This document shows positions 7,716-18,553 of a stretch of DNA of 38,388 nt, in pieces. Under the pieces are notes generated by a model. That model saw only the letters and a program-made list of their open reading frames with translations, searched no databases and was not told the DNA's origin. Every line of letters starts with the position of its first letter. The stretch's first letter is position 1. The position numbers and the translations under genes were made by a program. Source of the DNA: Tissierellia bacterium (GTDB taxonomy: Bacteria; Bacillota; Clostridia; Tissierellales; Peptoniphilaceae); contig JAAYQA010000019.1 in assembly GCA_012519495.1 (NCBI GenBank), forward strand, positions 1 through 38,388. Reading direction: 5' to 3'.

Positions 7716-8759
7716 TTATGGCAGGTCAAAATATTCTTCCAGCGTTTGTCCGGAATTGTATATGCGGGCGGCCATTTCTTCGCCTACATAGCGAAAATGC
7801 CAGGGTTCGTACATATAGCCCGTGCTGTCTTCTTTTCCTTCGGGATAGCGCAGAATAAAGCCGAAGCGGTAGGAATTGTCCGCCAGCCAGATGCCTTCTT
7901 CGGTATCCTTGAAGCTTTCCACAATATTGTGTGCGGGATTGTCGTTGATGATGTCGATTGCAAGGCCGGTCTGGTGTTCGGAATGCCCGGCGGGCGCCAC
8001 GCTCCGGCGGGTTTCTTCTTCCCCGTAGGCTTCGATATTGCGTTCGATCACGCCCAGCTGATAGTCGTAGCTGCGATAACCCGAACCGATGTCCACAAAC
8101 ATGCCTTCGGCTTCCATGACATCTTTCATGCGTTCAAACTGGATCATCACCTCGGTTTTGATACCGGGGTCGTACGTTTCGGGCAGGCCGTATTCCTTGT
8201 TGGCAATCAGTATGCCTTCCACCACTTTAAACTGATCGTCGACGGAGGCATCTTCCAGTATATGCGCCGGCAAATAGCCCATGACCTCGCCAAAGCTGAC
8301 CTTGGTGAACCCGCCGGCTGTGCCGTAGGTTTCCACATAGTCGCCGATGCGCACCTGTTTGATTTCCTCGTCGGAACCCGGTTCCGGTGCGATCTGTGTC
8401 GTCTCTGTCAGGCGCGAAAAGCCCTGCAGCTTCGTTTCAAAGGCGGTTTCGTCGGGCAGATTGGCCGCGGCATCTTCGGTTGCATCTTCTGTGTCTTCGG
8501 TTTCTGTCTGTTCAGATGCTTCGGTTTCGTCGTCCGCCGGTTCGGTTTTATCTTCCGTGGATTCCGCGGATTCGTCTGTTGCGGGTCCCTCCTCTGTCAT
8601 CGCGGGTTCTGTAACCGCGGTGGGTGAATTGCGTAGGATCTGCCGCAGTGAACAGGCCCCCAACCCGATCACTAACAGCAATAGAATCACCAGGAGGCGT
8701 TTACTGCCCCGCTGCTTTTTTACCTGTCGCCGACGTTCCCGGCGCTGTCTGCTTTCCAT
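7716..8759 (-). CDS. D-alanyl-D-alanine carboxypeptidase, VanY/M15B family, putative lipoprotein
   Basis: Cell-wall peptidase of 347 residues that trims the terminal D-Ala of peptidoglycan stem peptides. The start is the ATG following AGAGGA. An upstream in-frame GTG would add 12 residues of leader. The N-terminus is extremely Arg/Lys-rich, followed by a hydrophobic stretch and GLGAC, a plausible lipobox with Cys36. Residues 45-100 are a Glu/Thr/Asp-rich linker. An SH3-like segment follows at about 135-170 (RIGDYVETYG...GEVMGYLPA). The M15 domain has SEHQTGLAID at 260-269 (zinc ligands His262 and Asp269) and EPWH at 318-321 (catalytic Glu318, zinc ligand His321). The ApbE gene ends 16 bases upstream, so the two lipoproteins are co-transcribed. 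Confidence 0.87.
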   Translation of the reverse strand: MESRQRRERRRQVKKQRGSKRLLVILLLLVIGLGACSLRQILRNSPTAVTEPAMTEEGPATDESAESTEDKTEPADDETEASEQTETEDTEDATEDAAANLPDETAFETKLQGFSRLTETTQIAPEPGSDEEIKQVRIGDYVETYGTAGGFTKVSFGEVMGYLPAHILEDASVDDQFKVVEGILIANKEYGLPETYDPGIKTEVMIQFERMKDVMEAEGMFVDIGSGYRSYDYQLGVIERNIEAYGEEETRRSVAPAGHSEHQTGLAIDIINDNPAHNIVESFKDTEEGIWLADNSYRFGFILRYPEGKEDSTGYMYEPWHFRYVGEEMAARIYNSGQTLEEYFDLP

Positions 8760-8775
8760 TTTTTCCTCTTTCCCC

Positions 8776-9855
8776 TTAGTCCGTTGCGTCTGCACCTTTA
8801 CTATAGCTCATGTCTTCCATACCGGCTGTATACTGCAGACTGCCGTCTTTCAGAATCCACAGGGCTTCTGTGCCCTCGATGGATTCCACCAAAGCTCTCC
8901 CCTCTTCATATTCCAGTAAAAAGACCGCGGTCGACAAAAAGTCTGCCAGACCGGAGTCTTCTGTCACAATACTCACCGCCCGAAAACGGTCGGCGGGATA
9001 CCGGGTATCCGGGTCGATCAGATGATGATAGACCTGTCCGTCCACGGTATAAAAACGCTGATAGTCACCGGATGTGACCACGCTTTGATCCGCCACAAAA
9101 ACGACTTCGGCGTTTTCTTCCGATGATTTTCCCATCAGATAGTCCGGATTCTGTATGCCGATGCCCCAGCGGTCTCTTTCATCGGCAGGTTTTCCGATCG
9201 TGCGCACATTGCCGCCGGAGTTGATAATGCCTGCGGTTAAGCCGGCTTCTTTCAGCGCCTGCGCTCCCATTTCGGTTGCGTAGCCCTTGGCGACGGCGCC
9301 CAGGTCCAGGCGGATGTCTTTGTCGTCGATATAGACCGTACCTGCGGCTTTGTCCACGATAATGTGTTCCATCCCGCTGTGTGCGGCCGCTGCCTGCAGT
9401 TCTTCGTCGGACGGCACCTGCGGGTTTTCCGTGTCCTCCCGGTACAGATGCCATACTTCATACAATGCGCCGTTGGATATGTCGGTTTTGGCAGAGATCG
9501 TCTCGTAGCGTTCTTTTGTGCGTTCGATCAGGTCGATAATGGACGGATTGACCGTAACCGGGGCTACGCCAGCATTTTCATTGATCGTATATACATTGTT
9601 TACGCCTTCGTAGGCATGGTATTTGTCAAAATCCTGATGCAGCGCGGTGAACTGCTCTTTCAGCATCTGAAGATAGGTGTTGAATTCTTCTTCGGTTTCG
9701 GTATAGGCCACCAATTGTACGACGGTGTCAAAGGTGTCATAGAAGGTGCCGGTATACCGGGTTTGTTCTTCGGGTGCCTGTGTATCTCCCTGCGGTTGTG
9801 TGCACGCGCTTAAAAGCAATAGGAGCACAAGGCCGAATACCCATTTTTTTCTCAC
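8776..9855 (-). CDS. apbE: FAD:protein FMN transferase ApbE, lipoprotein
   Basis: Transfers FMN from FAD to a Thr of target flavoproteins outside the membrane (for example NqrB/RnfG-type subunits). It has 359 residues and starts with GTG after AAGGGG. The signal ends in LLSAC, with lipidated Cys18. Family motifs include FYDTFDTVVQLVAY near residue 38, LGAVAKGYATE near 185, the NSGGNVRTIG motif near 212 and the metal-binding DSGLADFLSTAVFLL near 305. The flavinylation target is not in this window. The DUF445 gene ends 11 bases upstream, and the VanY-like lipoprotein is directly downstream. Confidence 0.92.
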   Translation of the reverse strand: MRKKWVFGLVLLLLLSACTQPQGDTQAPEEQTRYTGTFYDTFDTVVQLVAYTETEEEFNTYLQMLKEQFTALHQDFDKYHAYEGVNNVYTINENAGVAPVTVNPSIIDLIERTKERYETISAKTDISNGALYEVWHLYREDTENPQVPSDEELQAAAAHSGMEHIIVDKAAGTVYIDDKDIRLDLGAVAKGYATEMGAQALKEAGLTAGIINSGGNVRTIGKPADERDRWGIGIQNPDYLMGKSSEENAEVVFVADQSVVTSGDYQRFYTVDGQVYHHLIDPDTRYPADRFRAVSIVTEDSGLADFLSTAVFLLEYEEGRALVESIEGTEALWILKDGSLQYTAGMEDMSYSKGADATD

Positions 9856-14434: not shown

Positions 14435-15784
14435 TTATCGATTCCGGCCCCAAACAGACTGCATCACCTGTTTGAGGGTCGCATGACCTGTGTCTGCGGT
14501 CAGGATGGTTTTATAGCCCAGCCGGTGGAGTTCGTTTACGCGTTGTTTGGCATGCGAGACGCGTTTCAGCTCGCCGGTCAAACCGACTTCCGCCACAAAG
14601 GCCGTGTCGGTGGCGAGGGGCTTTTTTTGCACCGACGAGGCCACACTCATCATGACGGCCAGATCGCTGGCGGATTCGGTAAGGCGGATATTGCCCGTGG
14701 TGCGCACGATGACGTTTTTGTCGCCCAGGGGGATGCCCGCCCGCTCTTCCAAAACAGAAAGAAGGGTGTTGAGTCTGTCGCGCGGCATATTTTCCGATAT
14801 GCGCATCGGATACGGCGTGAATGATTTGGACACGAGCGATTCGATCTCGATTACGAGCATGCGCGTGCCTTCCCGCAGGATGCATTTCGCCGAGCCGATG
14901 ATCCCTTTGTCCTTTCTGTCTGTCGTGAAATACGAAGACGGGTCTTTTACTTCCATCAGCCCGTTTTGTTTCATTTCAAACAGCCCGATTTCTCCGGTGG
15001 CGCCGAAGCGGTTTTTTGTGCTGCGCAGGATACGCAGTTCTTCGGACGGGTCGCCTTCCAAAAGGAGCACGGTATCCACCATATGTTCCAGCGTGCGAAG
15101 CCCCGCCATTTCGTCGGCTTTGGTCATATGCCCCACCAGGAGCGCGGCGCGTTTTTTAACCGGGTTTTTGCACAGGTCCATGATTTTTTCCGTGCAGGCC
15201 ACGGTCTGCACGGGGCTGCCGGCCCGTTGCGGATGTTCCGGCAGGCGAAAGGTCTGTATGCTGTCGATGACGATAATGTCCGCATCGACCGCATGCGCCT
15301 GTGCTTCCACTTCATCCATATCCTGCGAAGCCAAAAGCCAGATATGATCATGTATCGCGGTAAACAGGCGATCTGCCCGCGCCCGGATCTGCGAGCCGCT
15401 CTCTTCTCCTGTTGCGTACAGTACCTTCAGCCCTTTTTGCGCGTATTCCTGCGCCAGTTGCAAAAGAAGCGTCGACTTGCCCGCACCGGGCCGTGCGGTC
15501 AGTATGGTGACCGAGTCTTTCACAAGCCCCTCTCCGAGAACCGTGTCCCAGCCGGGAAACGACGAACGCACCCGCTCAGAATCCTGCGCAGACACGTTTT
15601 TTAACTGCCTGGGTGTTTTGGTCGCCACCGGAACCGCGCGCGCTGCGCCTAAGCCGCCCGCCGCTTTTCGTACGACGGTCTCTTCCAGACTGTCCCACGC
15701 GCCGCAGCGCGAACAGCGCCCCTCCCATGTCGGGTGCGGCGCACCACATTCTTTGCATGTATAAGTCGTTTTTATTTTCGCCAT
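14435..15784 (-). CDS. radA: DNA repair protein RadA
   Basis: RecA-related helicase that processes recombination intermediates, 449 residues. The start is the ATG at 15784 after AGGGGA. An in-frame ATG ten codons upstream lacks a site. The N-terminal zinc finger has CKECG and CSRCG within the first 30 residues. The Walker A motif reads ARPGAGKST near residue 95, where GDPGIGKST is more usual, so the Asp/Ile variant positions are changed. The RadA-specific [11 protein letters not shown] follows near residue 250, and the C-terminal third is the Lon-like domain ([10 protein letters not shown]...[12 protein letters not shown]). Its position between clpC and carD/yacL is the standard Firmicutes neighbourhood. 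Confidence 0.96.
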
Positions 15785-15812: not shown

Positions 15813-15841
15813 ATTATACCGTATGCATCGCCGGGCGACAG
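15813..15841 (-). promoter_or_regulatory. Probable radA promoter
   Basis: On the minus strand TATAAT (15818-15813) lies about 30 bases before the radA start. The hexamer 17 bases upstream is CTGTCG (15841-15836), a weak -35. It points away from the plus-strand promoter at 15852-15880, so the two genes are divergently transcribed from a shared region of about 70 bases. Confidence 0.5.
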
Positions 15842-15851
15842 TTCCCTTTAT

Positions 15852-15880
15852 TTGGTTTTCTTTCGTTCTCCCGATATAAT
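15852..15880 (+). promoter_or_regulatory. Sigma-A-type promoter of the RpoN-box gene
   Basis: TTGGTT (15852-15857) and TATAAT (15875-15880) on the plus strand are 17 bases apart. Transcription would begin near 15887, giving a leader of about 40 bases that contains the -24/-12-like element and a GGAG ribosome binding site. Confidence 0.65.
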
Positions 15881-15891
15881 AAAGAGAAGTA

Positions 15892-15909
15892 TTGGCATGC
15901 TTTTTGCTT
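15892..15909 (+). promoter_or_regulatory. Sigma-54-type -24/-12 element in front of the RpoN-box gene
   Basis: The sequence TTGGCATGCTTTTTGCTT matches the sigma-54 consensus TGGCAC-N5-TTGCW at ten of eleven defined positions. The invariant GG (15894-15895) and GC (15906-15907) are exactly ten bases apart. As a true sigma-54 promoter it would start transcription only a few bases before the ATG at 15926. Since the gene product is itself the domain that reads the -24 element, the site may instead be an operator just downstream of the sigma-A start site. Confidence 0.6.
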
Positions 15910-15925
15910 GGAACCCGGAGATGCA

Positions 15926-16090
15926 ATGATGCGAAATCGGATGGAAGTCACAAAGAAAAAGCCGCTCAGTGATGCAAAAATCACCGAGCAGCTCGTTTCT
16001 GAAGGTTTCGCCATCTCCCGCCGCACCGTTGCCAAATACCGGGAAGCCATCGGCATCCCGAAATCGTCGGTCAGGAAGGCGTTTCGATAG
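15926..16090 (+). CDS. Stand-alone RpoN-box (sigma-54 C-terminal DNA-binding domain) protein
   Basis: A 54-residue basic protein on the strand opposite to its neighbours. Residues 12-54 match the extreme C-terminus of sigma-54: [13 protein letters not shown], then the RpoN box as [15 protein letters not shown], then SSVRKAF. In full-length sigma-54 this end recognises the -24 promoter element. The activator-interacting region, core-binding domain and other helix-turn-helix are all absent, and no remnant of them precedes the ATG. The unit looks complete: sigma-A-type promoter, GGAG site five bases or so before ATGATG, a single TAG stop and an intrinsic terminator. It may bind DNA as a repressor or sigma-54 competitor. 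Alternatively it is a captured 3' end of an rpoN gene. I know of no described protein of this form. Confidence 0.82.
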
Positions 16091-16103: not shown

Positions 16104-16130
16104 AGCCGGGAGCAACCCGGCTTTTGTTTG
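16104..16130 (+). terminator. Intrinsic terminator of the RpoN-box gene
   Basis: AGCCGGG and CCCGGCT form a perfect 7-bp GC-rich stem with the loop AGCAA, followed on the plus strand by TTTTGTTTGCTTT. The tail is on the plus-strand side, so it serves the small plus-strand gene and not clpC. Confidence 0.8.
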
Positions 16131-16132
16131 CT

Positions 16133-18553
16133 TTATTTTTTGCTGAAGGTGACTTTGTCGTCTTCGTAGTCGATGACGATGGCGTCGTCTCGTTCGATGG
16201 TGCCCTTCAGGATTTCTTCGGATAGTTCGTTTTCGATCATGTTTTGCAGGGTGCGCTCCAGGGGACGTGCGCCGAAGACTTTGTCGAAGCCTTTTTCGCC
16301 GATATAGTCGGCGGCGCGATCGGTGATTTCGATGTCGATCTCCAGTCCTTTCAGGCGGTGCACCAGATCTTTGACCATGATATCCACAATTTTGCGGATA
16401 TTTTCCGGCTCCAGATGTGCAAAGACAATGATGTCGTCGACGCGGTTCAGGAATTCGGGCCGGAAGGTCTGCTTGAGTTCTTCTTCGATAATCTCCCGCA
16501 TGCGCTCGTATTCCTGCTTCTGCTCGTCGGTGTCGTGGGCAAAACCGATGGTGTTTCTTTTGTCGAGCCGGGTGGCGCCTACATTGGAGGTCATGATGAT
16601 GACGGCGTTTTTGAAGTTGACGGTTTTTCCTTTGCCGTCGGTCAGGCGTCCGTCGTCGAGCACCTGCAGCAGCATATTGAATACGTCCGGATGCGCCTTT
16701 TCAATCTCGTCAAACAAGATGACGGAATAGGGTTTTCTGCGGACGGCTTCGGTAAGCTGGCCGCCTTCGTCGTAGCCGACATAGCCCGGAGGCGAACCGA
16801 CCAGACGCGACACGGAGTGCTTTTCCATGTATTCGGACATGTCGATCCGGATCATGGCATCGTCGGACCCGAAGAGTGCTTTGGCCAGCGACTTGGCCAG
16901 ATAGGTTTTTCCGACACCGGTGGGTCCTACAAAGATAAAGCTGCCGACGGGCTTTTTCGGGTCTTTCAGGCCGACGCGCGCACGGCGGATCGCATGGGCG
17001 ATGGAGTCGACTGCATTGTCCTGCCCGATGACTGTCTTTTTCAGCTCCGCATCCAGATGCAGATAGCGCTGGCTTTCTTCTTCGTTCAGCTTGGTTACGG
17101 GCACATGGCTCCAGTCGGAAACGATCTTGGCGATCTCGTCGAAACCGACTTCCATTTTGCTGGTGGTGCGCTTGCGCTCCCACTCCTGTTCGCTTTCTTT
17201 TATGGTTTGTTTCAGTTCTTTGACTTCGTCGCGCAATTGGGCGGCTTTTTCAAAGTCCTGCGTGGCAACGGCCTTGTCTTTCTGTCCGGTCAGCTCTTCA
17301 AGCCGGGTTTCCAGTTCTTTCAGATTATTGGGCGCCACATAGTTTTTCACGCGGATCATGGACGCCGCTTCATCGATCAGGTCGATCGCCTTGTCCGGCA
17401 GGAAACGGTCCGTCAGATACCGGTGGGACAGTTCTACGGCGGCTTCCACAGCTTCGTCGGTGATGGTTACATTATGATGCGCTTCGTATTTGTCGCGGAT
17501 ACCGTGCAGAATCCTGATGGAGTCTTCCACGGTGGGTTCTTCCACGACGATCGGCTGCAGTCTGCGTTCCAGTGCGGCGTCTTTTTCGATATGCTTGCGG
17601 TATTCGTCGATCGTTGTGGCGCCGATGATCTGCAGTTCGCCCCGCGCCAGTACCGGTTTCAAGATATTGGCGGCATCCAAGGCCCCTTCCGCTCCGCCTG
17701 CGCCTACAATGGTGTGCATTTCGTCGATAAACAAAATGACGTTTTCTGTTTCGACGAGTTCTTCGATCGCTTTTTTGACGCGTTCTTCAAATTCGCCGCG
17801 GTATTTGGTGCCCGCCAGCATGCCGGGCAGGTCCAGACTGACAATGCGTTTGCCTTTCATGATCTCGGGCACATCGCCTTCGGTGATTTTTTGTGCGAGC
17901 CCTTCTGCGATCGCGGTTTTCCCTACGCCGGGTTCCCCGATCAGCACGGGATTGTTTTTAGTGCGGCGCGAAAGCACCTGGATGATGCGTTCGATTTCTG
18001 TCTGCCGGCCGATCACCGGATCTACTTTTCCGTCTTCCGCCATTTTGTTCAAATCGCGGCTGTATTTTTCGATGACGGATTCTTTTTTCTCGGCACCCGG
18101 GGTTTGTTTCATTTCCGGTCCCTGTTCCTTTCGTTCGCCCAGGCCGTTTAATATATAGTTGCGCACGGCGTTTCTATCTACGTCGTTGGCTTTCATCATC
18201 ATGCTGGAGAAGCTGTCGTCTTCGCGCAGCAACGCCAAAAGGACATGTTCCACGCTGACAAAGCGATGCCCCAGCTGACGGCCTTCGTTTTCCGCCTGCT
18301 GCAGTACGCGTTTCACGCGGGGCGTAAAGCCGGTAGGCGGCGCCTGCGCGCTGCCGTCTCCGATGAGTTTTTTTACGGTGTTTGCGAATTGTTCGTAGTC
18401 GGCGCCCAGGGCGGTCAGTGCTTCTTCCGCCAGGCTTTCCTGATTGAACATGGCCAGAAGCAAATGTTCCGTGCCAATATAGTCGTGCTTCATCCCCCAT
18501 GCTTCCATGGAGGCGTCACGAAGCAATTGATTGATATCGTTACCGTTTGCCAT
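16133..18553 (-). CDS. clpC: ATP-dependent chaperone/unfoldase ClpC
   Basis: Hsp100 protein of 806 residues, the unfoldase that feeds ClpP and, with McsB, degrades phosphoarginine-marked proteins. The ATG at 18553 follows AGGAGG. The N-domain repeats cover residues 1-140. The first AAA domain has GEPGVGKT near 200, the UVR-containing middle domain is around 415-450 (QDFEKAAQLRDEVKELK), and the second AAA domain has GPTGVGKT near 540 with Walker B ILFDEIEKAH. It is the last gene of the ctsR operon, and its start lies within the end of mcsB (14-base overlap). Adaptor binding through the N- and middle domains is known for the family. Confidence 0.97.
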   Translation of the reverse strand: MANGNDINQLLRDASMEAWGMKHDYIGTEHLLLAMFNQESLAEEALTALGADYEQFANTVKKLIGDGSAQAPPTGFTPRVKRVLQQAENEGRQLGHRFVSVEHVLLALLREDDSFSSMMMKANDVDRNAVRNYILNGLGERKEQGPEMKQTPGAEKKESVIEKYSRDLNKMAEDGKVDPVIGRQTEIERIIQVLSRRTKNNPVLIGEPGVGKTAIAEGLAQKITEGDVPEIMKGKRIVSLDLPGMLAGTKYRGEFEERVKKAIEELVETENVILFIDEMHTIVGAGGAEGALDAANILKPVLARGELQIIGATTIDEYRKHIEKDAALERRLQPIVVEEPTVEDSIRILHGIRDKYEAHHNVTITDEAVEAAVELSHRYLTDRFLPDKAIDLIDEAASMIRVKNYVAPNNLKELETRLEELTGQKDKAVATQDFEKAAQLRDEVKELKQTIKESEQEWERKRTTSKMEVGFDEIAKIVSDWSHVPVTKLNEEESQRYLHLDAELKKTVIGQDNAVDSIAHAIRRARVGLKDPKKPVGSFIFVGPTGVGKTYLAKSLAKALFGSDDAMIRIDMSEYMEKHSVSRLVGSPPGYVGYDEGGQLTEAVRRKPYSVILFDEIEKAHPDVFNMLLQVLDDGRLTDGKGKTVNFKNAVIIMTSNVGATRLDKRNTIGFAHDTDEQKQEYERMREIIEEELKQTFRPEFLNRVDDIIVFAHLEPENIRKIVDIMVKDLVHRLKGLEIDIEITDRAADYIGEKGFDKVFGARPLERTLQNMIENELSEEILKGTIERDDAIVIDYEDDKVTFSKK

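Follow-up and report, generated by a model that had tools for sequence, protein, structure and literature searches.

A free-standing RpoN box between clpC and radA in a Tissierellia bacterium, a possible self-limiting remnant of sigma-54

The DNA described here (the window) is a stretch of 38,388 nucleotides from a Tissierellia bacterium of the family Peptoniphilaceae, and at positions 15926–16090 of its forward strand it contains a free-standing open reading frame (ORF) of 54 amino acids. Two ATG codons, at 15926 and 15929, are candidate starts and lie at a spacing of 5 or 8 from the Shine-Dalgarno sequence GGAG (15917–15920, forward strand). The protein has 53 amino acids if it begins at the second ATG, which is where its rpoN-like residues start, and the frame ends with a TAG stop at 16088–16090. 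The first codons, MRNRMEV (15929–15949), resemble the rpoN N-terminus of the nearest genera and are likely the retained start of the parent gene; they are followed by the RpoN box proper (15950–16087), which corresponds by homology to the final part of full rpoN, and by an intrinsic terminator at 16104–16130 with a 7-bp stem (16104–16122, six G-C pairs) and a T-rich tail, all on the forward strand. A perfect sigma-A -10 hexamer, TATAAT, is predicted upstream of the gene at 15875–15880 on the same strand, with a weak -35. A preliminary description of this DNA had listed a complete set of expression signals, and the Shine-Dalgarno sequence, the stop and the terminator are indeed present; the promoter is reduced to the TATAAT, as a good -35 is absent and a sigma-70 scan reported no promoter for the box gene at its thresholds. 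The location given in the same description, on the opposite strand between clpC and radA, was confirmed. Both neighbors, named by reading their translations, are encoded on the reverse strand, clpC with its stop at 16133 and radA with its start at 15784. The clpC-radA spacer that holds the box gene is 348 bases long, of which 141 bases separate radA from the box gene; the predicted -10 of the divergent radA (TATAAT, reverse strand) is found at 15813–15818. The spacer also contains, on the forward strand, a candidate operator of the sigma-54 -24/-12 type, TTGGCATGCTTTTTGCTT (15892–15909), with an exact match to the pattern at 15893–15908; this site is absent from the preliminary description. 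Third-position GC is 0.64 in the box ORF vs 0.67 in both radA and clpC. A hairpin of 15 pairs with a T tail is present on the reverse strand within the box ORF, at window positions 15959–15994, and could be a stop for transcription coming from clpC toward radA.

Profile searches have borne out the earlier identification of the 54-residue product as the RpoN box of sigma-54. Residues 9–51 match positions 117–159 of the 160 in PF04552 (Sigma54_DBD) with an E-value of 9.4e-15 and 55.1 bits (cut-off 22.8), residues 8–51 match positions 391–434 of the 434 in TIGR02395, and the C-terminal RpoN box of sigma-54 spans residues 9–54. The best solved relatives are the RpoN chains 2mt3, 2o8k, and 2ahq. 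Positions 1–116 of PF04552, including the -12 helix-turn-helix (HTH), have no match in the box protein; besides this HTH, the protein lacks sigma-54 regions I and II and the core-binding domain. Judged by homology, the protein is a C-terminal RpoN box predicted to read the -24 element, and the proposal of a DNA-binding miniprotein is well supported on the same ground. The AlphaFold model (mean pLDDT 70.6) contains the two HTH helices at residues 16–25 and 32–42, with block means of 86 and 85 over residues 21–40, and is poor over residues 1–10 (mean pLDDT 49). A control protein in which the parental residues before the box are kept (P0004) was modeled with a short first helix and with 82 and 81 over residues 21–40, so the parental residues do not improve modeling of the HTH. 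By these models, the box protein has likely lost the helix that opens the RpoN domain. Foldseek searches with the box model returned only sigma-54 chains among the top 16 matches, including 2o8k (titled as bound to the -24 element), at weak E-values of which the best was 7.5e-3 and none reached 0.001.

The genome that contains the window (G000; 1.79 Mb, 97.4% complete, 110 contigs) was also searched for the rest of sigma-54. A PF04552 search of the whole assembly had the window's box as its sole match, and the full rpoN of G017, a genome of one of the nearest genera, used as the query at E ≤ 1 matched the assembly by its residues 412–456 only, at the same box. The search for sigma-54 activators with PF00158 matched only the window's ClpC (C46) and a Clp-type ORF of 863 residues (C58). 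The box product is therefore without a sigma-54 partner in the assembled genome, unless rpoN and an activator both lie in the unassembled part. Competition with sigma-54, one of the roles envisaged at the outset, is impossible in the genome as assembled, in which no full rpoN, no rpoN fragment other than the box, and no enhancer-binding protein were found. Recent duplication of the 3' part of a resident rpoN, which had been named as evidence that would speak against a functional miniprotein, is likewise disfavored because no rpoN was found from which a near-identical copy could stem.

The relatives of the box point to its source. It is 76% identical over 45 residues to residues 412–456 of the 457-residue G017 rpoN and has the same end point, with the stretch RRTVAKYRE identical in both. 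Over 41 core residues the nearest rpoN sequences are those of G017 (80%), G118 (76%), and G029 (71%), and those of the other 17 genomes are at 63% or below; the same three genomes are also nearest in ClpC (62–63% vs 55–57%) among the seven genomes of other genera tested. Residues 2–8, MRNRMEV, resemble the N-termini MRHGVEL, MRQGIEL, and MRQGMQL of the rpoN genes of G017, G118, and G029, and among 918 background N-termini (67 of 985 were left out as rpoN-like) it was equaled by 2 in mean score and by 11 in best score. This resemblance is suggestive of one in-frame internal deletion, and the box gene is likely an rpoN, shared with the nearest genera, that was shortened in frame by about 400 internal codons, with the start, the first codons, the RpoN box, and the stop left in place. 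Insertion of a 3' fragment of rpoN between clpC and radA, with a fortuitous start codon and promoter, appears a less likely origin, and concerns origin only, being compatible with any of the functions considered below. It agrees with the finding that no box separates clpC from the adjacent radA in G118 (89 bases apart), G017 (114 bases), and G029 (220 bases), all with their full rpoN elsewhere; the resemblance of the first codons to the rpoN N-terminus speaks against it. The possibility that rpoN is native to the clpC-radA locus was rejected, as neither clpC nor radA was found beside rpoN in the five family genomes in which its surroundings were examined (G017, G118, G029, G036, and G020). G017 also contains a second PF04552 stretch (L265, G017:C1:311500-314000; match at 312457–312729, profile positions 11–98) with two internal TAA stops, likely a decaying paralogue beside the full rpoN.

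Within the family (f1), an RpoN-box match was found in 29 of 130 genomes and was missing from 101. In the 28 matching genomes other than G000, the box closes an open frame of 432–511 residues; among the 130 family genomes searched, G000 alone has it with no other part of rpoN. Of 249 genomes of the order, 144 matched (115 of the 119 outside the family); at class level, where the sample was limited to genomes with a completeness of 95% or more, the box was matched at E ≤ 1e-4 in 114 of 392. Loss of rpoN or its RpoN box has been repeated and is common in the family. The same-genus genome G001 (76% complete) gave no box match. The clpC-radA junction is rearranged in G001, in which radA adjoins a homologue of window positions 7716–8795 and clpC adjoins an ftsH-like gene, as judged by eye (L067 and L216). 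A second free-standing box was not confirmed in the 130 family, 249 order, and 392 class genomes, and a conserved family of such genes, to which the preliminary description had looked for support, is thus not supported by the genomes searched; as far as confirmed, the box gene is confined to one lineage. Five short frames were followed up and rejected as free-standing boxes: those in G232 and G275 are at contig ends, those in G175 and G220 are broken or frameshifted rpoN genes, and that in G050 at 2157716 is a transposase-like ORF by reading of its sequence. Outside this follow-up were two weak matches in G050 and seven frames of 241–396 amino acids (in G157, G158, G206, G334 as its second match, G402, G441, and G500). 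The rpoN of G220 (L261) is split at one point, with query residues 1–208 in frame 3 and 210–456 in frame 2, presumably by a frameshift or a sequencing error.

Similar results were obtained with named genomes and protein databases. A relative is encoded by 231 stretches; there were 80 loci in named genomes, and of the 40 of these that were read, 38 have frames of at least 407 amino acids, and rpoN-like residues precede the box in the short frames of L159 (206 amino acids) and L169 (98 amino acids). One protein-database search gave 31 short proteins and another was considered for its best 120 of 7927 matches. All of the 39 short proteins examined except P0003 have rpoN-like residues before the box, as judged by reading, or an unplaceable stretch (P0005, from a 544-base contig). 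P0003 is the representative of the 90% cluster of the window protein, which has four member sequences on nine contigs, the longest of 361 kb; it differs from the window protein by one residue, D16N, and at least one other assembly therefore carries the box gene. Most short box proteins are from short contigs, the exceptions being P0018 (1.37 Mb), P0091 (2.9 Mb), P0047 (six contigs, up to 100 kb), P0118 (10 contigs, up to 49 kb), and likewise P0119, P0062, and P0124. P0018, P0047, P0091, and P0118 have 54–59 amino acids and keep rpoN residues ahead of the box; such box-only ORFs on long contigs may be frameshifted rpoN genes or independent box-only cases. A PHROGs search with the box protein gave nothing below an E-value of 0.04, and a plasmid collection gave no box match. 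No description of a natural free-standing RpoN box was found in the open-licence PMC literature, judged by title and start of abstract among the matches listed.

The candidate site TTGGCATGCTTTTTGCTT fits the sigma-54 -24/-12 pattern with the correct spacing. Exact matches to TGGCAYN5TTGCW number five in the 1.79-Mb genome, including that of the window, and at this density the 141-base radA-box spacer would be expected to contain about 4e-4; the other four are all located within mechanical ORFs of 141–402 amino acids. The window's site overlaps a GTG frame of 118 amino acids, which is the upstream extension of the box frame, and two short frames on the reverse strand; these are taken as non-coding spacer. 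The site is situated between the perfect -10 and the ribosome site, ends 16 bases 5' of the start codon, and is about 75 bases from the predicted -10 of radA. By the usual -24/-12 convention, a sigma-54 start would be near 15919, within GGAG; a sigma-54 transcript would therefore be without a ribosome site, and for this reason an operator is the better reading of the site than a promoter. Its position and sequence fit a putative operator for the product of the box gene itself. Sites with up to one mismatch number 126 in the genome vs 106 for a reversed control pattern, and with no clear excess there is no visible regulon. Upstream of 28 family rpoN genes no such site (up to two mismatches) was found within 300 bases of the point used, which for 15 of the 28 was the opening of the frame (start not assigned) and for G127 an internal start. 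Of the repression suggested earlier, the part that has gained is self-repression, for which a concrete candidate site is at hand; repression of other genes is not backed by site enrichment in the genome.

The state of the box itself has been compared with that of real boxes. The search found 115 full-length boxes, of which nine out-of-register ones were dropped. Against the profile of the remaining 106 the window's box scored 111.7, with a leave-one-out median of 108.9 and 53.8% of the real boxes scoring lower. Of the boxes simulated by randomly changing an equal number of amino acids, starting from G017, G118, or G029 (5000 each), none reached 111.7. A score like that of real boxes, never reached in the simulations, suggests that the box has spent little time unconstrained, so that it would be either still in use or the product of a recent truncation. 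Weighing against continued constraint is D16N in P0003, which alters a position occupied by D in every one of the 106 real boxes and appears to be the sole known change placeable after the truncation. The codons of the box differ from those of G017 by 22 synonymous and 8 amino-acid-changing differences. The dN/dS ratio gave no usable value, and silent differences no date for the truncation, as synonymous sites were saturated in nearly all pairs. A regression of box on RadA divergence was weak (r 0.22, 190 pairs) with no sign of acceleration.

Our tentative preference is for a gene that encodes little beyond an RpoN box and whose protein represses its own transcription through the -24/-12 site. 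Polymerase with sigma-A would start near 15887, which would place the candidate site at about +6 to +23; the box protein would likely bind there and block the polymerase, as proposed for the engineered peptide RpoN* (described below) in rpoN-null cells, and its own gene would be turned down. The identity of the RpoN box, its standing as the sole sigma-54 sequence found in the genome, its intactness, and the exact site in the spacer count for such autorepression. Counting against it are the missing regulon, the weak -35, the lack of a confirmed homologue beyond the lineage or of a match in G001, the D16N change, the probable loss of the first helix, and the family rpoN genes without an upstream site. 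Autorepression is closely followed in probability by an inert relic of the same rpoN descent, left by the internal deletion and maybe transcribed, with an idle product and a leftover or chance site. The relic agrees with the common loss of rpoN in the family, with a free-standing form not confirmed outside the window's lineage, with a change at an otherwise invariant position, and with -24/-12 sites without clear genome excess; a recent deletion would in addition account for the intact box, the signals, and the rarity. However, the box cannot be told apart from working boxes and far outscores randomly changed ones, the open frame, ribosome site, and terminator are all present, and an intact remnant is unusual, no other family genome having the box without the rest of rpoN. 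Somewhat less probable than either is the fuller proposal of a natural RpoN*, in which sigma-54 would have been reduced to its DNA-reading tip and would act, by way of sigma-A, as a self-limiting repressor, sigma-54 transcription having been abandoned.

A protein acting in trans on other genes with -24-like elements, such as the radA operon or old sigma-54 targets, is improbable. The box gene is divergent from radA, and the isolated domain is described in PMC5626770 as able to bind the -24 element on its own; against this, sites are not clearly enriched, the other four exact sites fall in mechanical ORFs, and the candidate site lies about 75 bases from the predicted radA -10. An assembly or contig artefact can be practically dismissed, for although the assembly is in 110 contigs, the four cluster sequences on nine contigs, with a representative one residue away, exclude an assembly slip. 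If the autorepressor reading is true, the gene would be a natural equivalent of an inhibitor peptide made by design and would show a sigma factor caught in the act of being pared down to a simple repressor, which would make testable how a regulator outlives the system it served. Should the gene be a relic, the locus still gives a clear anatomy of rpoN loss in a family in which this loss is so frequent.

Known systems resemble the window's gene in part. Compared with sigma-54, the box shares sequence and end point with the rpoN of G017, but it has neither regions I and II nor the core-binding domain nor the -12 HTH, and no activator was found in the genome. Negative autoregulation of rpoN is reported for R. 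leguminosarum (PMC3538637), and contacts to the -24 element are reported for the RpoN box together with two flanking stretches (PMC3162934). A box-like DNA-binding domain outside sigma-54 occurs in L264 (255–3227, reverse strand), an activator with AAA+, PRD, and EIIA domains called LevR-like from its domain order, in which residues 4–53 weakly match the RpoN box (22.0 bits vs PF04552, and 25.3 bits at the same ORF in another search; cut-off 22.8). Similar matches are present in ORFs of about 1000 amino acids in G049, G050, and G052. In L264, however, the domain is fused to an activator of 990 residues, whereas the window's box, at 55.1 bits, is clearly of rpoN descent, and the AAA+ and PRD domains are missing from its gene, in which the 54-residue ORF is followed by the stop and the terminator. 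The closest likeness is to RpoN* (Sci Rep 2017), an engineered 60-residue C-terminal domain of A. aeolicus sigma-54. That paper (PMC5626770) cites a Kd of about 109 nM for binding of the -24 element by the isolated domain from A. aeolicus and reports that RpoN* alters or lowers transcription in a delta-rpoN strain too; RpoN* is proposed to block other sigma factors at the same gene. The box protein shares with RpoN* the form of a C-terminal sigma-54 domain that stands alone, about 60 residues long, with nothing else of sigma-54 attached. RpoN* has an A. aeolicus sequence, is plasmid-borne, and consists of the last 60 residues of RpoN, whereas the gene in the window occurs naturally, is without the parental residues that would precede the box, and is accompanied by a candidate site ahead of its own start. 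A -24 element of the kind that RpoN* is proposed to block would be provided by this site, just after the TATAAT at 15875–15880 with its weak -35.
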